Below, one piece after another: positions 2 to 50,054 of a stretch of 64,000 bases of DNA (positions are counted from its first letter, which is position 1; each line of letters opens with the position of its first letter). Position numbers and translations under genes: made by a program. The stretch spans positions 558,001 to 622,000 of the forward strand of contig NZ_SNYW01000006.1 in the NCBI RefSeq assembly GCF_004363235.1, given 5' to 3'. Origin of the DNA: Dongia mobilis. Lineage in GTDB: Bacteria > Pseudomonadota > Alphaproteobacteria > Dongiales > Dongiaceae. The notes beneath the pieces are model-generated. The model worked only from the letters and a program-made list of their open reading frames with translations. It ran no database searches and had not been told where the DNA came from.

Positions 2-661
2 TTCAAAGGAACGGTAGCTGCCTTGCTCCTGTCTGCCTGCGCTCAGACCGGCATGGAACCGCAGCCGGCTGCGCCGGCGCAGTCGGCCACCACGGCTGTC
101 GTCGCCCCATCGCCCGAACCGCTGCTTCCGGTCCTGAAACCGGGTACCAAGGTGCGCGCGCCAGCCAAGCCGAAGCTCGACGCCGACGCCCCCGACAGCG
201 GCGCGGCCGGTACCGGGGCGGAAGCGGCGGGTGGATCGGGTTCCGAGGCGTCCGGCACGGAATCGCCCGGCAATACGTCGCCGGGCAATGCAGGCACCAA
301 TGTGCCGGAAATGCCGGCCGTGCCCGAAGGCGGCGCGCCGCTGTCCGGCAGTCTCACCGAACCCGTCTATCAGCCGGCCGAGCCGGAACCGGTCGAGACC
401 GGATCGCCGGACGACCTGCGCGGCCAGACCGAAATCCAGGTGATGGCTGCGCTGGGCTCGCCGGCCAGCACGCGCGCCGACGGGGCCAGCACCATCTGGA
501 GCTATCAAGCCGGCGACTGCACACTGGATATCTATTTCTTTCTCGACGTGGCCGACAATCAGCGCCGGGCGCTGAGCTATGAACTGGCCGCACCGCAACC
601 AGGGACGCCGGCGGCGGAGCGCTGTTACCAGGCGCTGAAGGCAGCTGCGGCTTCGCGCTAG
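2..661 (+). CDS. Alanine/proline-rich lipoprotein, 5' end outside the window
   Basis: The reading frame is open from the first bases of the window, so the true start lies upstream. The visible N-terminus is a hydrophobic run ending in a lipobox-like LLSAC, so the mature protein should be anchored in a membrane by an acylated cysteine. About 100 residues of low-complexity Ala/Pro/Gly/Glu sequence follow. The C-terminal 80 residues form a compact domain with the pattern Q-x-V-x-x-x-LGSP-x-x-x-R-x-DG followed by W-x-Y and CTLDIYFF, which resembles the small BamE/SmpA-like lipoprotein fold. Function is unknown. A response regulator gene starts 15 bp downstream on the same strand. Confidence 0.75.
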   Translation, partial: FKGTVAALLLSACAQTGMEPQPAAPAQSATTAVVAPSPEPLLPVLKPGTKVRAPAKPKLDADAPDSGAAGTGAEAAGGSGSEASGTESPGNTSPGNAGTNVPEMPAVPEGGAPLSGSLTEPVYQPAEPEPVETGSPDDLRGQTEIQVMAALGSPASTRADGASTIWSYQAGDCTLDIYFFLDVADNQRRALSYELAAPQPGTPAAERCYQALKAAAASR

Positions 662-40031: not shown

Positions 40032-40244
40032 ATGGCGAAACGGGCGCGAATGAGGCCAGGATCCAAGGTGCTGACACATGGCCGGCATGGTGTCGCCGCG
40101 ATAGGGCGCCATCAGGTCGCGGAGAATGTCGAAAGTCTCGCCCGACAGGTCCTTCGCCGGCGATGCGCTGGGCAGCAGCGCCAGCAACAGGCCGAGGCAA
40201 AAACAGATCAGGCCCCGGATCGGTTCAGGGGCTGGGCGTGCCAT
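40014..40244 (-). CDS. Small secreted protein coupled to the VWA gene
   Basis: A 76-residue product with a signal peptide (about residues 10-30, GLICFCLGLLLALLPSASPA) and a short mature part beginning KDLSGETFDILRDLM. Its ATG at 40244 lies inside the end of the VWA gene (stop at 40225), and GGAG precedes it by about 10 bp, so it appears translationally coupled. It is not recognised. Its 3' end overlaps the convergent hypothetical gene. Confidence 0.5.
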   Translation of the reverse strand: MARPAPEPIRGLICFCLGLLLALLPSASPAKDLSGETFDILRDLMAPYRGDTMPAMCQHLGSWPHSRPFRHLPTRR

Positions 40245-42735
40245 ATAGCTTGAACTCCGTCGCGACGAAGTAGCCGTCCTGACCGTGGTTCGAAACCAGG
40301 CGCACCTTGAGGTAACGCGCCGTCACAGGGGCGAAGGTGCAAGACTGATAGGGCTGCGTCACGATACGGATGTTGTTGAAGGTACAGGTCGCGATCGATC
40401 GGAACTGGCCGGTCGGGCCTTCGTCGCCGGCCAGAATTTCGATCTCTTTCGGGTTGCCGTTGCCGGCTTCCGTGACCAGAACGGCGAATGTGTCGAATGT
40501 TGCCGCCTTTTCGCCGGCAAACGCATAGACAGCCTCCTCGTTCGCCCTGAGCCATGTGTGCTGGCTTTCGCGATCATCGGCCGTATTCAGCCAGACATCG
40601 TTCGGCGCCATCAGCAGCGCGCCGCCCTGACCCGAGGAAAGAAGGTTGACCATCCCGGCGCTTGCATCCGCTGCGGCCGCAGCCGGAGCTGACCCGGCGT
40701 CGATGTCGCCCCAGAGCTGGAACTCGGTCGCTGCGATGTATCCGTCGCCCCCCTGGTTCGACAACAGTTTGATCTTGAGATAGCGCGCCGAGGTGGGCGG
40801 CAAGGCGCACAGCTGATAGGGCGACTGGCTCAGTTTGACATTCTGGAAGCTGCACGTGCCGATCGAGCGGAACTGGCCGGTCGGACCGTCATCACCCGCC
40901 AGGAGTTCGATCTCCTTTGGGTTGCCGTTGTTCGCTGCCGGCACCAGTACGCCAAAGGTGTCGAAGGTCGCGGACTTGCCTTCGGCGAAAGCATAGACCC
41001 CCTCCTGACCGGCCAACATCCAGGTGCGGCCTTCCTCCTGGTCATCCGCAGTGTGGAGCCAGACATCGTTCGGGATGGCCAGAATCTGTCCCCCGCTCTG
41101 TGGCGACAGCAGGTTGATGCCGGTGGGGGCGTGAGCTGCCGCAGCGACGTCACCGCCGGCATTCTCGTCGACCTTGCCCCAGAGCTGGAATTCGCTCGCT
41201 ATCAGATAGCCGTCGCCGCCATGGTTCATCACCATCTTGACCTTGAGATGACGTGCGGTGACTGGCGGAAAGCGACAGAGTTGGTAGGGGTCCTCCAGAA
41301 TCTTGATGTTCTGGAAGCTGCAGGTGGTCACCGAACGGAACTGCCCGGTCGGGCCGTCATCGCCGGCCAGCAGTTCGATCTCCCTGGCAACGCCGTTGTC
41401 GGCCTGCATGACCAGCATGCCGAATGCCTCGAATGTGGCGGGCCTGCCCTCGGCAAAGCCATAGACGGCTTCCTCGCCCGCCCGCAGCCAGGTGACGTTG
41501 GTTTCCTGGTCGTCGTTCGTCGCCAGCCAGACGTCGCTCGGCGTCGATAGGATGGCACCGCCATTCCGGGGTGAGAGCAGGTTGATGCCGGCGGGAGCCG
41601 CCGCGGCCGCAGCGCCGCCGTCATCGGCGACGAGGGAGCCCATCAACTGAAATTCGGTGGCGCGGACATAACCGTCGCCACCATGGTTCGAGACCAGCTT
41701 GACCTTCAGGTAGCGCGCGGTGACCGGCGGCATCTGGCATTCCTGGTAAGGCGCCTGCTGCATCTTGACGTTCTGGAAGGCGCAGATGCCGATGGCCCTG
41801 AACTGGCCCGTCGGTCCTTCATCGCCGGCCAGGATTTCGATTTCCTTCGGGTTGCCATTGTCGGCTTCGTTGATCAGCACGCCGAAGGAATCGAAGGTGG
41901 CGCTGCGCCGGTCCTCGAAGGCATAGACCGCCTCCTGGCCGCTGCGCATCCAGGTCTGCGCGTTCTCCTCGCCATCATTCGTGGCCAGCCAGACATCGCT
42001 CGGCGTGGTCAGGATCTGGCCGCCGTTCTTGACGGAAATGAGATTGAAGCGTTCCGGCCGCTGCTGAATCTGGATCTGCGAGACGGGTGCCGCCGGCGCC
42101 ACCGTTTGCTGTACCTGGGTAAGCGCCGCCGTCAGCCCGGAGACGTCCTGGGCGTCATAGTATTGCCCCCCGGTCGTCTCCGGTACGCATTGCATGAGTG
42201 CGCGCTGTGCCTCGGTCAGGGTGAAGCCAACCAAATCGACCTTGAGATCGAGACCGGCATCGCGGATCGCCGCCGCCGCGGCGCAGGGATCGCCCTGGCA
42301 TTCCTCGATGCCGTCGGTCACCAGGATGATGCGATTGTCCTGACCCTTGAGTGCGGCAAAGCTGCGCAAGGCCTGCATCAGCGAATCCGCGATCGGTGTT
42401 TCCCCCTTTGCCACCAGATTGTCGATGCGCTGCGCAATCGTCGCCGCGTCGTCGGCACCTATCGGCGAGACCAGCTCGATATCGGTGCAGTCCTTGGCCT
42501 TGCGATGGCCGTAGAGCAGCAGGCCAAGACGCACTTCGCCGGGGATCGAGGCAAGCGTATCGCGCATCGCCGCCTTGGCGGCATCCATGCGCGTGTCGCC
42601 GCTGGCGAGCTTCTTTTTCATGGAGCCCGAGCCATCGACGATGAACAGCACATTGGTATCGGCGGTCGCTGCGCGTGGCGACAGGGTGATCCAGGTGCAG
42701 GCGAAAATCACTGCCAGGCAAATGCGAAACAACAT
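40225..42735 (-). CDS. Secreted VWA protein with four discoidin-like repeats
   Basis: An 836-residue predicted extracytoplasmic protein. A signal peptide (residues 1-25) is followed by a von Willebrand factor A domain (about 28-210) with an intact MIDAS start DGSGSM and the later GETPIAD and TDGIEEC; two cysteine pairs (83/146, 151/183) are possible. Four modules of about 138 residues follow at 229-367, 382-520, 538-676 and 695-832, separated by Ala-rich linkers. Each has DVWL, a T-W-x-R/L core, F-x-x-F, EIE-LAGD-GPTGQFR, a cysteine-containing PYQ-C, and ARYLKV. The pattern resembles discoidin/F5-8C-like carbohydrate-binding folds. The start is set at 42735 because the predicted promoter lies just upstream. 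Confidence 0.85.
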   Translation of the reverse strand: MLFRICLAVIFACTWITLSPRAATADTNVLFIVDGSGSMKKKLASGDTRMDAAKAAMRDTLASIPGEVRLGLLLYGHRKAKDCTDIELVSPIGADDAATIAQRIDNLVAKGETPIADSLMQALRSFAALKGQDNRIILVTDGIEECQGDPCAAAAAIRDAGLDLKVDLVGFTLTEAQRALMQCVPETTGGQYYDAQDVSGLTAALTQVQQTVAPAAPVSQIQIQQRPERFNLISVKNGGQILTTPSDVWLATNDGEENAQTWMRSGQEAVYAFEDRRSATFDSFGVLINEADNGNPKEIEILAGDEGPTGQFRAIGICAFQNVKMQQAPYQECQMPPVTARYLKVKLVSNHGGDGYVRATEFQLMGSLVADDGGAAAAAAPAGINLLSPRNGGAILSTPSDVWLATNDDQETNVTWLRAGEEAVYGFAEGRPATFEAFGMLVMQADNGVAREIELLAGDDGPTGQFRSVTTCSFQNIKILEDPYQLCRFPPVTARHLKVKMVMNHGGDGYLIASEFQLWGKVDENAGGDVAAAAHAPTGINLLSPQSGGQILAIPNDVWLHTADDQEEGRTWMLAGQEGVYAFAEGKSATFDTFGVLVPAANNGNPKEIELLAGDDGPTGQFRSIGTCSFQNVKLSQSPYQLCALPPTSARYLKIKLLSNQGGDGYIAATEFQLWGDIDAGSAPAAAAADASAGMVNLLSSGQGGALLMAPNDVWLNTADDRESQHTWLRANEEAVYAFAGEKAATFDTFAVLVTEAGNGNPKEIEILAGDEGPTGQFRSIATCTFNNIRIVTQPYQSCTFAPVTARYLKVRLVSNHGQDGYFVATEFKLYGTPSP
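40240..42051 (-). repeat. Four tandem protein modules encoded in the VWA gene
   Basis: The copies, in transcription order, are at 42051-41635, 41592-41176, 41124-40708 and 40653-40240. They are diverged but alignable along their whole length; the most constant blocks are GDEGPTGQFR/GDDGPTGQFR and the C-terminal NHGGDGY/SNQGGDGY followed by EFQLWG-like ends. Confidence 0.9.
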
Positions 42736-43161
42736 CTTGGCCCCCGCTGTCCGACCGTCGGAAACGCCACAAATGTTCGATTGCGCGGAAGTATACATCA
42801 GGGATGGTGAGAAACAAAAAATTCGCCCCGACGCATCGTCAGCGCCAGCAAGCTGACACCAAGATGTGGCCGGTCAGGATGTCGCCGGCACGGCGCCGAG
42901 AACCGCTCCTATTTCGTGCTCGGATTACGGGCAGGAACCGGATGCCCCGGGGCTGTGGGGGCGGCAAGTTCGGAACCAGCCGCCGCACCGTTCGCGCGCC
43001 AGCCAGCCGCTTGCGTCAGGTCGCCCGAAACCGGGACAGGGGGTGCTCGTCAAACCTGGCCGAAAGCACGGTCCGACACGCCGGGGTTGCGCGGGAAGGC
43101 GCCGGGTGCAAGGTTCTCCAGCATCGCACTTTCCTGACCCAGCAATCACGGATTACCGCCC
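42736..43161. other. Intergenic region between VWA gene and chpT
   Basis: This 426-bp gap separates the VWA gene (minus) from chpT (plus). It holds the VWA promoter near its left end. The open frames inside it on both strands have no recognisable domain or ribosome site, and I see no RNA gene. The sequence just before the chpT ATG has no strong promoter pattern. Confidence 0.5.
42790..42817 (-). promoter_or_regulatory. Sigma-70-type promoter of the VWA gene
   Basis: On the minus strand TTGTTT (42817-42812), 16 bases, TATACT (42795-42790). The predicted start at about 42783 lies some 48 bp before the ATG at 42735 and rules out the longer reading frame start. Confidence 0.5.
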
Positions 43162-43800
43162 ATGAACATCGATATCGCCGTGCTCGAATTGGCCTGCTCG
43201 CGTTTCTGCCATGACCTGATCTCGCCCATCGGCGCGGTCAATAATGGGTTGGAATTGCTGGAGGATGAGGAGGACCCGGCCCTGGTGGCCGAAGCGCGGG
43301 GTCTGGCCGAACGCTCTGCCAAGCGCGCCAGCGCCTTGCTGCAGACCTATCGCTGTGCCTTCGGCAATGCCGGCAACCAGGCCGGGTTCGGCCTGGGCGA
43401 ATCCCTGAAGTTGGCGCGCGACTTCCTCGAGGGAGCCCGCGTGACCATGGGCAGCCTGCCGGCAGTGCTGCCAAGTGATGCGCCGGCCGGCCTCGGCAAA
43501 TTGCTGCTGCTCGGCGTGATGGTCCTCGCCGAGACGCTGCCCCGCGGCGGCACCATCGCCGTTACTTTCGCCGGAGAGGGGGCGACGGCCGGCTTCCTGC
43601 TGGCCGGCGAGGGGCCGCAGGTGGCGGCGGCCGAGGAGAGCCGGAACGGGCTTGCGGGGATCTCCCCGGCACAGCTCGACGCCCGCAACGTGCTGCCCTT
43701 TTTCGCCGGCCTGAGTGCCCAGCGGATCGGGTATTCGCTGACGCTGAGTCAGGGGCAGAACGGCCGGATTGAACTTGCCGCCAATCCGCGAAGCGCCTGA
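43162..43800 (+). CDS. chpT: Histidine phosphotransferase ChpT
   Basis: A 212-residue protein that relays phosphate from the CckA kinase to CtrA and CpdR in alphaproteobacteria. The dimerisation and phosphotransfer helix is ELACSRFCHDLISPIGAVNNGLELL, with H17 as the predicted phosphoacceptor. The C-terminal half is a degenerate ATPase-like fold lacking the N, G1 and G2 motifs, as expected for ChpT. It lies directly upstream of the chemotaxis genes; ctrA is 6 kb downstream. CckA is not in the window. Confidence 0.9.
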   Translation: MNIDIAVLELACSRFCHDLISPIGAVNNGLELLEDEEDPALVAEARGLAERSAKRASALLQTYRCAFGNAGNQAGFGLGESLKLARDFLEGARVTMGSLPAVLPSDAPAGLGKLLLLGVMVLAETLPRGGTIAVTFAGEGATAGFLLAGEGPQVAAAEESRNGLAGISPAQLDARNVLPFFAGLSAQRIGYSLTLSQGQNGRIELAANPRSA

Positions 43801-43955: not shown

Positions 43956-46907
43956 ATGGACGATTTGTTGAGCGAGTTTCTGACCGAAACCAACGAGAAT
44001 CTCGCTGTGCTCGACGTTGAACTGGTCAAGCTCGAGCAGAATCCGAACGACAATGAACTTCTGTCGAACATTTTCCGGCTGGTTCATACGGTCAAGGGTA
44101 CGTGCGGCTTTCTCGGCCTGCCGCGGCTCGAATCGGTCGCTCATGCCGGCGAGAACGTCCTCGGCAAGGTGCGCGACGGCGAACTGGAAGTGACGGCCGA
44201 GGCCGTCACCCTGATTCTCGCCTGCCTCGATCGCATCCGCTCGATCATGGGCGATCTCGAAGCCTCGGGCAGCGAACCGGCCGGCGATGATTCCGAACTG
44301 ATCAAGAGCCTCAACGCCTTCGCCGATGGCGGCAGGGCCGCCGCCCCGGCGCCGGCTGCCGCACCCGCCGCGCCGCCGCCCGCCGCCGCTCCCGCACCCA
44401 GCGGCGCCTCGATCTACGAGCAGATCGGCGGCATGGGCACGATCGACGCCGTCGTCGAGGTTGCCTTTGCCCGGATCCTGGGGGATTTGCGCGTCAAATC
44501 GGTGTTCGAGGGCGACAGCATCGACCACATTCAGGGCTACATGCGCGACCATCTCGCCAAGATGTGCGGCGGCCCGGATACCACTGCGCCGCATCCGCTC
44601 GCCGGCCGCGCCATGTCCGACACCCAATTCGAGGCCATCTGCGGTCATCTGCAGGCCGGCCTCAACACGCTGGAGGTCCCGCAGCAGATCGCGGCCATGA
44701 TCATGGGCCTGGTCTATGCCGAGCGCGATTCCGCCACCGGCGGCAGCACATCGGCCGCCGAACCGCCGGCTGCTGAAGCCGCGCCGCCGCCTGCCGCCGC
44801 CAAGGCGCCGCCGCCCGCCAAGAAGGAAGCCGATGGCGACGCCAAGGAATCCGCGGTCGCCAACCAGAGCATCCGCGTCAATGTGGAGCTGCTCGAGAAC
44901 CTGATGACCATGGTCAGCGAACTCGTGCTGACCCGCAACCAGGTCCTGCAGATCCTGCGGAAGCACAAGGACAGCGAATTCGCGGCGCCCCTGCAGCGCC
45001 TCAACCACGTCACCTCGGAACTGCAGGAAGGCGTCATGAAGACGCGCATGCAGCCGATCGGCAATGCCTGGGCCAAGCTGCCGCGCATCATCCGCGACCT
45101 CAGCCACGAACTGAAGAAAAAGATCGACCTGGTCATGATCGGCCAGGACACCGAGTTGGATCGCCAGGTCCTCGAGATGATCAAGGACCCGCTCACCCAC
45201 ATGGTGCGCAACTCGGCCGATCACGCGATCGAGACGCCGGAGGAGCGTCGCCGCGCCGGCAAGCCCGAAACCGGAAAAATCACTCTCAACGCCTATCACG
45301 AGGGCGGCCATATCATCATCGAAGTCAACGATGACGGCAAAGGCCTGCCGATCGACAAGATCAAGGCGAAGATCGTGCAGAACGGCCTGGCCACCGAGGC
45401 CGAGCTCGAGAACATGTCGGATCAGCAGATCCAGCAATACATCTTCAAGCCCGGCTTCTCCACCGCCGCCAAGGTGACCAGCGTTTCCGGACGCGGCGTC
45501 GGCATGGACGTGGTGCGCACAAACATCGAAAAGATCGGCGGCACCATCGAACTCCGGAGCCAGGAAGGCAAGGGCACGCGCTTCTCGATCAAGATCCCGC
45601 TGACGCTGGCAATTGTGTCGGCGCTGGTCGTCGAATGCGCCGGCGAACGCTTCGCCATCCCGCAGATTAGCGTGGTGGAACTGGTACGCGCCAGCTCCAA
45701 CGGCGAGCTCAAGGTCGAGCGCATCAACGACACGCCGGTCCTGCGCCTGCGCAACAAGCTTCTGCCGCTGGTTTCCCTGCGCGAGAAGCTGCAACTGGAG
45801 CTGGAGGCCGAGCGCGACAGCGATGATACTTTCGTCGTGGTCACCCAGGTCGGCACCTATCAATTCGGCATCATGGTCGACCGCGTGTTCGATACCGAGG
45901 AAATCGTGGTGAAGCCGGTCTCGCCGATCCTGCGCCATATCGAGGTGTTCTCGGGCAATACCATCCTGGGCGACGGCTCGGTGATCATGATCCTGGATCC
46001 CAACGGCATCGCGGCGGCCTCCGGCCAGATCAGCATGGGCGATGCGGACGCTGCCGAGAAGCAGATGCTGCGCAGCCGCGCCATCAATGACGAGGCGGTG
46101 CCGCTGCTGCTGTTCCGGGCCGGCCAGGGTGCGCCGAAGGCCGTGCCGCTGGCGCTGGTGGCTCGCCTCGAGGAGATCGACCGCAAGACGATCGAGCGCT
46201 CGAACGACCGCCTAGTGGTGCAGTATCGCGGCCAGTTGATGCCGCTGGTTGCGCTCGATCCCTATCAGGACAATTCGGCGGTGGAGGGCCAGCAGCCGGT
46301 CCTCGTCTTCTCCGACCGGGACCATTCCATGGGTCTGATGGTCGACGAGATCGTCGACATCGTCGAGGCGAAGCTGAATGTCGATCTGGCGGCGGAAACG
46401 CCCGGCCGAATCGGCAGCGCCATTATCGCCGGCCAGGCTACGGACATCATCGATACCGGGCACTACCTGTCGCAGGCATTTGCCGACTGGTTCGGGTCGC
46501 GCCGTGCCGACAGCGTCGGCGACAATGCGAAGCGCGTGCTGATGGTCGATGACAGCGCCTTCTTCCGCAACCTGCTGTCGCCGCAGTTGCAGGCCGCCGG
46601 CTTCATCGTCACCGCCGTCGACAGCGGCGACAAGGCGCTGGCCCTGGCCGAGGCGGGCGAGCATTTCGACCTGATCATCTCCGATATCGAGATGCCAGGC
46701 ATGGACGGCTTCGCCTTCTGCGAGGCGGTGAAGAAGAGCGGCCACTGGCAGCAGACGCCGATCATCGCGCTGTCCTCGCACGCCAGCCCCAAGGAACTGG
46801 CCAAGGGCCGTGCCGTCGGCTTTGACGACTATGTCGCCAAATACGACCGCGAAGGCTTGGTTCATACCCTCAACGAAGCCCTTTCCGAAGTCAGAGGTGC
46901 AGCATGA
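43956..46907 (+). CDS. cheA: Hybrid chemotaxis kinase CheA with embedded truncated-globin domain
   Basis: A 983-residue cytoplasmic kinase that should phosphorylate CheY and CheB. Order: P1 Hpt (residues 1-110, H44 in RLVHTVKG); a globin-like domain (about 151-260) between Ala/Pro linkers; P3 dimerisation (about 300-360); P4 ATPase (about 405-550; N-box HMVRNSADHAIE, G2 SGRGVGMDVV); two CheW-like domains (about 552-690 and 710-845); and a C-terminal receiver (860-980; D866, phosphoacceptor D910 in SDIEMPG). The globin segment replaces the usual P2. It carries the 2/2 globin pattern IYEQIGG, RILGDLRVKSVFEG and GGP, but the usual proximal-His column holds L215. The start is the ATG at 43956. 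Confidence 0.93.
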   Translation: MDDLLSEFLTETNENLAVLDVELVKLEQNPNDNELLSNIFRLVHTVKGTCGFLGLPRLESVAHAGENVLGKVRDGELEVTAEAVTLILACLDRIRSIMGDLEASGSEPAGDDSELIKSLNAFADGGRAAAPAPAAAPAAPPPAAAPAPSGASIYEQIGGMGTIDAVVEVAFARILGDLRVKSVFEGDSIDHIQGYMRDHLAKMCGGPDTTAPHPLAGRAMSDTQFEAICGHLQAGLNTLEVPQQIAAMIMGLVYAERDSATGGSTSAAEPPAAEAAPPPAAAKAPPPAKKEADGDAKESAVANQSIRVNVELLENLMTMVSELVLTRNQVLQILRKHKDSEFAAPLQRLNHVTSELQEGVMKTRMQPIGNAWAKLPRIIRDLSHELKKKIDLVMIGQDTELDRQVLEMIKDPLTHMVRNSADHAIETPEERRRAGKPETGKITLNAYHEGGHIIIEVNDDGKGLPIDKIKAKIVQNGLATEAELENMSDQQIQQYIFKPGFSTAAKVTSVSGRGVGMDVVRTNIEKIGGTIELRSQEGKGTRFSIKIPLTLAIVSALVVECAGERFAIPQISVVELVRASSNGELKVERINDTPVLRLRNKLLPLVSLREKLQLELEAERDSDDTFVVVTQVGTYQFGIMVDRVFDTEEIVVKPVSPILRHIEVFSGNTILGDGSVIMILDPNGIAAASGQISMGDADAAEKQMLRSRAINDEAVPLLLFRAGQGAPKAVPLALVARLEEIDRKTIERSNDRLVVQYRGQLMPLVALDPYQDNSAVEGQQPVLVFSDRDHSMGLMVDEIVDIVEAKLNVDLAAETPGRIGSAIIAGQATDIIDTGHYLSQAFADWFGSRRADSVGDNAKRVLMVDDSAFFRNLLSPQLQAAGFIVTAVDSGDKALALAEAGEHFDLIISDIEMPGMDGFAFCEAVKKSGHWQQTPIIALSSHASPKELAKGRAVGFDDYVAKYDREGLVHTLNEALSEVRGAA

Positions 46908-47401
46908 GTGCCGCGAAGAACGGGGCCGACCGCAGCGTCGCCCCGACCGCCGCAAGCGGCGAGCAGCGCGATTACGTGACCATGACCATCGCCGACCAGC
47001 TGTTCGGCATTCCAGTTTTGACCGTGCAGGATGTATTGGGGCCGCAGAACATCGCGCGCGTGCCGCTGGCGCCCAAGGAGGTGGCCGGCAGCCTCAACCT
47101 CCGCGGTCGCATTGTGACGGCGATCGACGCCAGGCCGCGCCTTGGCCTGCCGCCGCGCGACAACAGCAAGCCGCCGATGTCGGTCGTGGTCGAGCACGAG
47201 GGCGAGCTCTATAGCCTCCTGGTCGACAGCGTCGGCGAGGTTTTGAGTCTCAATTCGCGCGACTACCAGCGCAACCCGCCGACACTGGATCCCAGGTTGC
47301 GCGACTTCTCGGATGGAATCTATCGGCTCAACGGATCGCTGCTGGTGGTGCTGAGCGTCGCCTCGCTGCTGGATTTCGGCAACCGCTCCGACGCCGCTTG
47401 A
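46904..47401 (+). CDS. cheW: Chemotaxis adaptor CheW
   Basis: A 165-residue CheW domain that links receptors to CheA at the membrane array. Core motifs are DYVTMTIADQLFGIPV, the N-terminal GSLNLRGRIVTAIDARPRLGLP and VVEHEGELYSLLVDSVGEVL. It has an N-terminal 20-residue polar tail. The ATG overlaps the cheA stop (ATGA). CheA itself carries two CheW-like domains, so this pathway has three of them. Confidence 0.95.
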   Translation: MSAAKNGADRSVAPTAASGEQRDYVTMTIADQLFGIPVLTVQDVLGPQNIARVPLAPKEVAGSLNLRGRIVTAIDARPRLGLPPRDNSKPPMSVVVEHEGELYSLLVDSVGEVLSLNSRDYQRNPPTLDPRLRDFSDGIYRLNGSLLVVLSVASLLDFGNRSDAA

Positions 47402-47597
47402 CGGACAATGCTTTCCGGATCGGCGCGGTTCGGGGCGCCGTCCGACCGGATGGCGGGGGTTGACAGGCCAGGCGTACCGGGTGCGATCGGCGCAATTTCT
47501 GGCAAATGCCCGTGACGGTGATTGACGCGACCCGGCCTGCCTGACTAATGATGGTGGGGTGGCATGGCGGTGCTGTCCCTGCAGACGGAGCTGATGG

Positions 47598-47963
47598 ATG
47601 AAATCGTGCCTGGTGGTTGATGACTCCAAGGTCGTTAGGATGGTCGCTCGGAAGATTCTCGAGGGCCTCAATTTCCAGGTCGTCGAGGCCGATAACGGCC
47701 AGACCGCCATGGACCAGTGCGTCAAGGAAATGCCGGACGCCATTCTGCTCGACTGGAACATGCCGGTGATGAGCGGGATCGACTTCCTGCGCCTGTTGCG
47801 CAAGGCCGACGGCGGTCAGACGCCGATCGTCGTCTTCTGCACCACCGAGAATGACATCCAGCATATCCAGGAAGCCATCGCGGCCGGTGCCAACGAATAC
47901 ATCATGAAGCCCTTCGACAGCGAGATCATCGAGTCCAAGTTCTCGCAGGTTGGCTTGATTTGA
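47598..47963 (+). CDS. cheY: Chemotaxis response regulator CheY
   Basis: A 121-residue single receiver. It has the acidic D8/D9 in VVDDSK, the phosphoacceptor D52 in LLDWNMPVMSG, T/C in FCTTEND and a lysine in YIMKPF. It should bind the flagellar switch (FliM/FliN) when phosphorylated. The gap of 196 bp from cheW holds no obvious gene. GGAG precedes the start by 6-9 bp. Confidence 0.94.
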   Translation: MKSCLVVDDSKVVRMVARKILEGLNFQVVEADNGQTAMDQCVKEMPDAILLDWNMPVMSGIDFLRLLRKADGGQTPIVVFCTTENDIQHIQEAIAAGANEYIMKPFDSEIIESKFSQVGLI

Positions 47964-48003
47964 CGCGGCCGGCGCGCCTGGCAGACCGGATCGGTAGAGG
48001 CTC

Positions 48004-49179
48004 ATGACCGCATTCAAGGCCGCGTCAGGGACAACCGCCGGAAGTGCCGCGGGAAGTGCCGCGGACGGGCCCTATCGGGTGATGGTGGTCGACGATTCCG
48101 CCGTTATCCGCGGATTGCTGACGCGCGCACTGGAAAGCGATCCCACCATCAAAGTGGTCACTACCGTCGGCAACGGGCAATTGGCTATCGACGCCCTGAC
48201 GCGCCCCGGCAGCGACATCGAGGTGGCCGTCCTCGACATCGAGATGCCGGTGATGGATGGTATTACGGCCTTGCCCAAGATGCTGGCGGCGCGGCCCGGC
48301 CTTGCCGTCATCATGGCCTCGACGCTGACACTGAAGGGCGCCTCGGTCTCGATGAAGGCCATGTCCCTGGGTGCAGCGGACTACGTGCCGAAACCGACAA
48401 CCACTGGCGCCATTTCCGCCGCCGCCGATTTCAAGGCGGATCTGGTGGCCAAGGTCAAATCCTGGGGCGAGGCGGGGCGGCGCAAGCGCGGCCTGCCGCC
48501 GGCATCCCCCAATGCTTCAGCGCCGCAACGGGTCGAGGCGCCCAAGCGGCTCTATGGTGCGCAGCCAGTCAAGCTGCGGCCGATGCCGCCGATACTGAAG
48601 CCGGAATGCCTCGTGATCGGGTCGTCCACCGGCGGTCCGCAGGCTCTCTTCAAGGTGTTCCAGGCGATCGGCAAGGTGGGGCATCTGCCGATCTTCATCA
48701 CCCAGCACATGCCGGCGACCTTCACCACGATACTGGCCGAACATCTCGGCCAGGCGTCGGGCATGCCCTCGGCCGAGGCGAAGGACAACGAACCGGTGGT
48801 GCCCGGCCGCATCTATGTGGCGCCCGGCGATTTCCACATGGTGGTCGAAGGCAACGCGGCGGCTCGCGTCGTCCGCCTCAACAAGAATCCGCCTGAGAAT
48901 TTTTGCCGCCCCGCGGTCGATCCCATGTTGCGCTCCATCGCGAAGGTCTATGGCAACAAGACTTTGTTTGTCATGCTGACGGGAATGGGGCAGGATGGCC
49001 TCAAGGGGGCGACGGAACTGGTAAATGCCGGGGGAACCGTGATCGCTCAGGACGAACAGAGTTCCGTGGTTTGGGGTATGCCCGGTGCGGTGGCCACTGC
49101 CGGGCTCTGCTCCGCGGTGCTTCCCCTCTCAGAGATCGGCCCCTTCGTCAAAAAGACGATCGGCCGTGGTACGGCATGA
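48004..49179 (+). CDS. cheB: Chemotaxis methylesterase CheB
   Basis: A 391-residue protein with an N-terminal receiver (about residues 20-140; VVDDSAVIRGLL, predicted phosphoacceptor in AVLDIEMPVMDG) and a C-terminal methylesterase/deamidase (about 200-385). The catalytic Ser is in IGSSTGGPQAL, the His in ITQHMPATFT and the Asp in TGMGQDGLKG. It removes methyl groups from receptors when phosphorylated by CheA. The N-terminal 15 residues are a low-complexity extension. Its stop overlaps the cheR ATG. Confidence 0.96.
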   Translation: MTAFKAASGTTAGSAAGSAADGPYRVMVVDDSAVIRGLLTRALESDPTIKVVTTVGNGQLAIDALTRPGSDIEVAVLDIEMPVMDGITALPKMLAARPGLAVIMASTLTLKGASVSMKAMSLGAADYVPKPTTTGAISAAADFKADLVAKVKSWGEAGRRKRGLPPASPNASAPQRVEAPKRLYGAQPVKLRPMPPILKPECLVIGSSTGGPQALFKVFQAIGKVGHLPIFITQHMPATFTTILAEHLGQASGMPSAEAKDNEPVVPGRIYVAPGDFHMVVEGNAAARVVRLNKNPPENFCRPAVDPMLRSIAKVYGNKTLFVMLTGMGQDGLKGATELVNAGGTVIAQDEQSSVVWGMPGAVATAGLCSAVLPLSEIGPFVKKTIGRGTA

Positions 49180-50054
49180 GGCAGACGTCGATGACGATCA
49201 CGGATTTCGACTTCATCTGCCAGATCCTCAAGGCCAGATCCGGTCTGGTACTGACCAACGACAAGGCCTATCTGCTGGAAAGCCGCCTGCTGCCGGTTGC
49301 ACGCAAATGGAAGCTGGCGACCTTCGACGATCTAGTGCGCCTGATCCGAAGCAAGAACGACGAGGCGGTGATCCGCGACGTGGTCGAGGCGATGACCACG
49401 AACGAATCCTTTTTCTTCCGTGATACCAAGCCGTTCGACCAGTTCAAGCAGATCTGCCTGCCGGCCATGCTGAAGTCGCGCGCCGGAGCGAAGAGCCTGC
49501 GCATCTGGTCGGCAGCCTGTTCCTCGGGGCAGGAGGCCTATTCGCTCGCCATGATCCTGACCGAGATGGCGCCGCAGCTGGCCGGCTGGCGGATCGACAT
49601 CGTCGGCACTGACCTCTCCAACGAGATCCTGCAGCGCGCCAAGGACGGCATGTACTCGCAGTTCGAGGTGCAGCGCGGGCTGCCCATCACGCTGCTGGTC
49701 AAGTATTTCACCCAGGTGGGCGACCGCTGGAAGATCTCGGACAAGATCCGCCAGATGGTGCAGTACAAGGAATGGAACCTGCTCAACGATCCAGCGCCGC
49801 TCGGAAAGTTCGATATCGTCTTCTGTCGCAACGTGCTGATCTATTTCGACCAGCCGACCAAGGCGAAGGTCCTGGCCGGCATTGCCAAGCAGATGCCGGA
49901 TGACGGCTATCTGTTCCTCGGCGGCGCGGAAACGGTGCTCGGCATTTCCGACAAGTTCCAGCTGCTGCCCGGCCAGCGCGGCATCTATGGCCTGACCGGC
50001 GGGATCAAGCCGCCGGCCTCGCTGACGCCGCCGGGCTTTGCCACGCCACGCTGA
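49176..50054 (+). CDS. cheR: Chemotaxis methyltransferase CheR
   Basis: A 292-residue protein that methylates receptor glutamates with SAM. The N-terminal helical domain contains TTNESFFFRDTKPFDQF and the catalytic domain has the SAM-binding IWSAACSSGQEAYSLAM and FDIVFCRNVLIYFD. The ATG at 49176 overlaps the cheB stop; an alternative ATG at 49191 would remove five residues. It is followed by a symmetrical terminator. No receptor gene is encoded beside it. Confidence 0.95.
   Translation: MRQTSMTITDFDFICQILKARSGLVLTNDKAYLLESRLLPVARKWKLATFDDLVRLIRSKNDEAVIRDVVEAMTTNESFFFRDTKPFDQFKQICLPAMLKSRAGAKSLRIWSAACSSGQEAYSLAMILTEMAPQLAGWRIDIVGTDLSNEILQRAKDGMYSQFEVQRGLPITLLVKYFTQVGDRWKISDKIRQMVQYKEWNLLNDPAPLGKFDIVFCRNVLIYFDQPTKAKVLAGIAKQMPDDGYLFLGGAETVLGISDKFQLLPGQRGIYGLTGGIKPPASLTPPGFATPR

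Follow-up and report, generated by a model that had tools for sequence, protein, structure and literature searches.

The analysed stretch of Dongia mobilis DNA (64,000 nucleotides, called the window here) contains cheA, followed by cheW, cheY, cheB and cheR (Table 1); a gene for a flagellar/T3SS-type ATPase lies beyond these. The cheA product starts with MDDLLSEF (window position 43956) and contains, according to Pfam, the Hpt, dimerisation, HATPase and CheW domains that are required of a CheA. It resembles the alphaproteobacterial F5-type CheAs, which have two CheW domains and a C-terminal receiver, in its P1, P3, P4, paired CheW and receiver domains, in its che cluster and in having no P2, but differs from them by a folded globin in the P1-P3 tether. 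A Pfam scan of the whole genome gave only one H-kinase_dim match. Since this protein is the organism's only CheA, the globin in its linker should act in the main pathway. A gene for a ChpT-like histidine phosphotransferase (PF10090) is located immediately 5' of cheA (window 43162-43800, plus strand), and the minus strand encodes a putatively secreted protein that combines a VWA domain with several discoidin/SUN-like repeats (window 40225-42798).

Table 1. Features of the cheA locus (window coordinates; residue numbers refer to CheA)
Feature	Position	Strand	Description	Basis
cheA	43956..46907	+	983 aa; P1-globin-P3-P4-CheW-CheW-receiver	Pfam
P1/Hpt	43962..44243	+	residues 3-96; HTVKG phosphorylation motif	PF01627, E=2.6e-17
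Ala/Pro linker 1	44331..44402	+	residues 126-149; predicted disordered	pLDDT <50
Group-1 truncated globin	44406..44738	+	residues 151-261	PF01152, HbN match, model
Phe171	44466..44468	+	B10 (Tyr in haem-binding relatives)	alignment on HbN numbering
Phe184	44505..44507	+	CD1, kept	alignment on HbN numbering
Met196	44541..44543	+	E11 (Gln in haem-binding relatives)	alignment on HbN numbering
His213	44592..44594	+	likely homologue of proximal His F8; shortened loop without F helix	alignment, model
Ala/Pro/Lys linker 2	44739..44879	+	residues 262-308; predicted disordered	pLDDT <50
P3 dimerisation domain	44862..45044	+	residues 303-363	PF02895 (H-kinase_dim)
P4 ATPase	45186..45605	+	residues 411-550	PF02518 (HATPase)
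P5, first CheW-like domain	45621..46013	+	residues 556-686; then second CheW-like domain	PF01584, two stretches
C-terminal receiver	46536..46865	+	residues 861-970	PF00072
cheW, cheY, cheB, cheR	46904..50054	+	3' of cheA, same orientation	Pfam

A truncated globin in the P1-P3 tether

The original prediction had recognised a group-1 truncated globin inside this CheA, between two Ala/Pro linkers. Its boundaries (residues 151-260, positions 44406-44735) and its residue numbering (Phe171, Phe184, GGP at 205-207, His213 and Leu215) proved to be right. The profile search that had been proposed as a check matched Bac_globin to residues 152-253 of the full protein (E=2.3e-6), and the globin segment alone scored 33.5 bits against a cut-off of 21 (E=5.5e-8). 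A phmmer search against the PDB identified HbN of M. tuberculosis as the best relative (1.5e-12) and also matched other group-1 truncated globins. The AlphaFold2 model, for which the window and related loci served as input, reached a mean pLDDT of 91.6 and a pTM of 0.84, and its top Foldseek matches were HbN chains (TM 0.81-0.85, rmsd 1.7-1.9 A), so that the suggested comparison with 2/2 globins likewise came out in favour of the prediction. The best matches in both Pfam and Foldseek were 2/2 TrHbN proteins rather than 3/3 S-family (protoglobin-type) sensor globins. A search of a viral structure library returned nothing useful except a giant-virus globin. Taken together, the profile, PDB and structure results rule out a chance or compositional similarity and confirm that residues 151-261 of D. 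mobilis CheA are a group-1 truncated (2/2) globin. It shares with TrHbN (M. tuberculosis HbN, PDB 1idr/5ab8) the 2/2 fold, the IYEQIGG start, the GGP motif and Phe CD1 (29-32% identity, TM ~0.84), but sits in a kinase, has Tyr-B10 and Gln-E11 replaced, and has a shortened F region in which the proximal His is in doubt.

In a longer model, the globin forms a confident island flanked by residues 126-149 and 262-308 (both with pLDDT <50), in agreement with the predicted linkers. The model of P1, globin and P3 reached a pTM of only 0.37, and none of the models reveals how the globin would contact P1 or P4.

A match of the segment to a known P2 domain, which had been named as an outcome speaking against a globin, was looked for as well, but Pfam detected no P2 or CheY-binding domain anywhere in D. 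mobilis CheA. Nor did Pfam find a P2 in three globin-free CheA orthologues. More than two dozen globin-free orthologues were inspected and have a low-complexity linker at the position of the globin; in those from other families, this linker is rich in Ala, Pro and Glu and about 70-190 residues long. Over half of all CheAs are without P2 (PMC10782961). Therefore, the globin appears to occupy a tether that was already P2-less. The description "in place of P2" thus holds with respect to position, since the globin shares with the P2/CheY-binding domain its location between P1 and P3, although it is all-helical and without a P2 match in Pfam. A displacement of P2 by the globin is rejected, because the globin-free orthologues examined do not have this domain either. 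The P2-less CheA linkers contain recurrent motifs of their own: a GEVSLDELEAxFxxxPGPE-like motif is shared by L087, L144, L151, L158, L161 and the region 5' of the globin in L125-L127 and is possibly a docking peptide, and DEHGFVPVPA recurs in L155 and L156.

Distribution of globin-bearing CheAs

A survey of related CheAs, also suggested originally, found the linker globin in 16 of 17 Dongiales genomes, including those of D. mobilis and Dongia deserti; within the genome collection, the family of D. mobilis represents the whole order. Only G007 deviates, in that its CheA-like protein is shorter and contains no globin. This distribution rules out an oddity or assembly artefact of a single genome. 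In a metagenome-assembled genome of D. mobilis (L006/L029), an in-frame TAA directly follows the globin in cheA, due to either a sequencing error or a broken gene.

In a class-wide sample, 136 of 385 genomes contain a close CheA orthologue. Outside the genus, the globin was found in 13 of the 131 genomes with such an orthologue, distributed over nine families. These numbers are lower bounds; the E-value cut-offs (0.001 for the globin, 1e-120 for CheA) miss degenerate cases. A phylum-wide sample added two more families, whose linker globins (L125-L127) are very degenerate, bringing the total beyond Dongiales to at least 11 further alphaproteobacterial families; no CheA-globin was found in this sample outside Alphaproteobacteria. 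Many of the sampled genomes are metagenome-assembled. Long frames with globin matches in L072 and L128-L132 were rejected as globin-CheAs because they have no recognisable chemotaxis domains; in most of them, the frame of a free-standing globin seems to be extended by non-coding sequence on its 5' side.

When mapped onto a tree of the kinase core, presence of the globin requires seven label changes, only one of which is forced by well-supported branches. A single clade of linker globins was not rejected (AU p=0.143), with some long-branch linker globins being hard to place on the tree.

State of the haem pocket and selection on the globin

The polar distal pair Tyr-B10/Gln-E11 is typical of, but not universal in, group-1 truncated haemoglobins. 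This pair is not found in the D. mobilis globin. The altered haem ligands noticed in the original prediction were borne out by alignment on HbN numbering, which puts Phe171 at B10 and Met196 at E11; throughout the genus, B10 is occupied by Phe and E11 in most cases by Met. Phe184 (CD1), Gly158-159 and GGP205-207 are kept as in group-1 truncated haemoglobins. An ungapped alignment had originally assigned Leu215 to F8, which has to be corrected: a better alignment, with a loop deletion of about seven residues, puts His213 at this site. Because relatives read DLKCPH or DLKAAH at F8 in the nearest genera, His213 is likely the homologue of the proximal His. Compared to these genera, about seven residues before F8 have been lost in the genus, and the AlphaFold2 model has no F helix in this region. 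The F8 site itself varies within the genus, reading TAPHP (with His213), NTPNP in G003/G004 or SAKSV, without any His, in G005. Overall, the His is kept in four of the seven species and absent from three.

Loss of pocket residues extends to linker globins beyond the genus. We compared 34 linker globins with 73 "free-standing" relatives of the same subfamily, a set that includes two globins fused to receptors and one fused to CheW. The F8 His is present in 72/73 relatives, the CheW-fused globin being the sole exception, but in only 16/34 linker globins, or 20/34 if the shifted APHP motif of the genus is counted as His; even the latter difference gives p=1.4e-7 (Fisher test, with related sequences treated as independent). 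Likewise, Tyr-B10 occurs in 10/34 linker globins vs 72/73 relatives and Gln-E11 in 8/34 vs 71/73. On the globin tree, the F8 His underwent at least six changes, one of them in the CheW-fused globin. Judged from these alignments, the haem pocket is repeatedly decayed in CheA linker globins. The complete Tyr-B10/Gln-E11/His-F8 set is retained in the linker globins of G138, G241, G106, G319 and G210. In two CheAs, the first CheW-like domain (P5) is interrupted between its two halves by a truncated globin that is additional to the one in the linker and has an intact Tyr/Gln/His pocket (L070 of G074, residues 709-826; L074 of G096, residues 659-775).

Other truncated globins were encountered in related contexts. 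In L084 (2979-4184, plus strand), a truncated globin that has lost the proximal His forms the C-terminal part of a CheW protein. The MCP encoded in L077 (3465-6329, plus strand) has four PAS repeats and a truncated globin at its N terminus, and L076, which runs into the contig end, begins in the same manner. Elsewhere in the D. mobilis genome, beyond the window, the gene for a class III nucleotide cyclase is directly preceded by that for a free-standing truncated globin with the conserved His (L093:1232-3117).

As the main alternative to a haem-poor or haem-free domain, the globin of the genus could still be a working haem sensor that modulates CheA directly. Where His213 is present, it would then ligate haem on the proximal side in spite of the shortened loop, and the apolar distal pocket (Phe B10, Met E11) would let the globin respond to O2 at low affinity, to NO/CO, or to redox as a six-coordinate, Met-ligated sensor. 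This is consistent with His213 being kept in four of seven species and aligning with DLKCPH/DLKAAH of the nearest genera, with the retained Phe CD1 and GGP, and with HbN crystal structures that have Phe B10 and an apolar E11 (2gkm and 2gl3, among the top structural matches). But the Asn in G003/G004, the missing His in G005, the shorter loop and the F helix absent from the model make us regard it as unlikely.

Between congeners, dN/dS of the globin is 0.03-0.27 (Nei-Gojobori), compared to 0.04-0.16 for P3-P4, and still 0.14 for a congener pair in which Asn replaces the His. These ratios indicate that the globin domain is under continued purifying selection in the genus, which is equally compatible with haem still being bound through His213. 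In nearly all comparisons the globin evolves faster than P1 and P3-P4, and globin-free orthologues are common, as would be expected of an inert spacer left over from the fusion and tolerated in the tether. Its retention in almost the entire order, the dN/dS values well below 1 and the specific conserved residues argue against this, and we consider it very improbable.

Two such residues distinguish linker globins: Gln or Asn at E8 (residue 193 in the window CheA) is found in 79% of them, but in 0/85 free-standing globins, and an acidic residue at position 240 in 79% vs 5%. The CheW-inserted globins have neither. These residues suggest either common descent or a constraint specific to CheA. Under a constraint, the globin fold might have been recruited as a haem-independent docking module that would function like a P2 domain in holding CheY, CheB or the array. 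The fold outlasting ligand loss would agree with such a role; yet any partner is a candidate only, descent would account for the two residues as well, and most orthologues manage without a folded domain at this position. Docking as the function for which the globin was recruited therefore seems rather improbable.

Possible origin and role of the globin

In our favoured explanation, with a probability of roughly one half (0.52), the globin was ancestrally a haem-based gas sensor in CheA and is haem-poor or haem-free in D. mobilis, where it is kept as a folded module. The main alphaproteobacterial CheA would have acquired a group-1 truncated globin in the flexible, P2-less tether that connects P1 with the kinase core. 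At first, this globin probably served as a haem-based module through which O2/NO controlled the kinase in cis. Binding of the ligand would alter the conformation or contacts of the globin and thereby the access of P1 to the active site of P4. Sister lineages with a complete pocket may still work in this way. In the genus of D. mobilis, haem binding by the globin is most likely weak or absent, because the genus has lost the distal pair and part of the F region, and three of its seven species lack the proximal His; the globin would be retained in the tether as a folded module that bears interactions. Ancestral gas sensing, control of P1 in cis and weak haem binding in the genus are what we infer from these patterns. 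For sister lineages whose pocket is intact, the direct gas input to the kinase that had originally been suggested is thus plausible; for the genus itself it is weakly supported. As a broader and more tentative proposal, alphaproteobacterial CheAs might possess a haem-gas sensor of their own in the linker globin, in some cases joined by another in P5, through which O2/NO act in cis without a receptor. Several lineages, including the genus of D. mobilis, might have lost the haem site, with the globin now serving CheA in regulation or docking without haem.

Globins fused to chemotaxis signalling proteins are known from globin-coupled sensors (such as HemAT) and from a Bac_globin-PAS-MCP described in Corallococcus (PMC6194562). 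In these cases the globin is fused to a receptor, whereas a 2/2 globin lies inside the kinase here; moreover, globins of globin-coupled sensors have 3/3 folds. More generally, 2/2 globins fused to other domains have been described (PMC7082302). According to a survey of CheA domains (PMC10782961), the kinase has no sensor domain of its own and relies on dedicated receptors, and the word "globin" does not occur in the main text of this survey; parts of a 2026 aerotaxis review treat globins as receptors only. A published CheA with a globin was not found in the main texts of the open-access papers searched, and domain databases presumably list the architecture automatically.

If it binds haem, the CheA globin would feed gas or redox signals from the cytoplasm directly into the core of the chemotaxis array. 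It is conserved across a whole order, with pocket-intact versions in several families, and the graded series from a complete pocket to no ligand represents a natural experiment on cofactor loss in which the sensor domain is kept.
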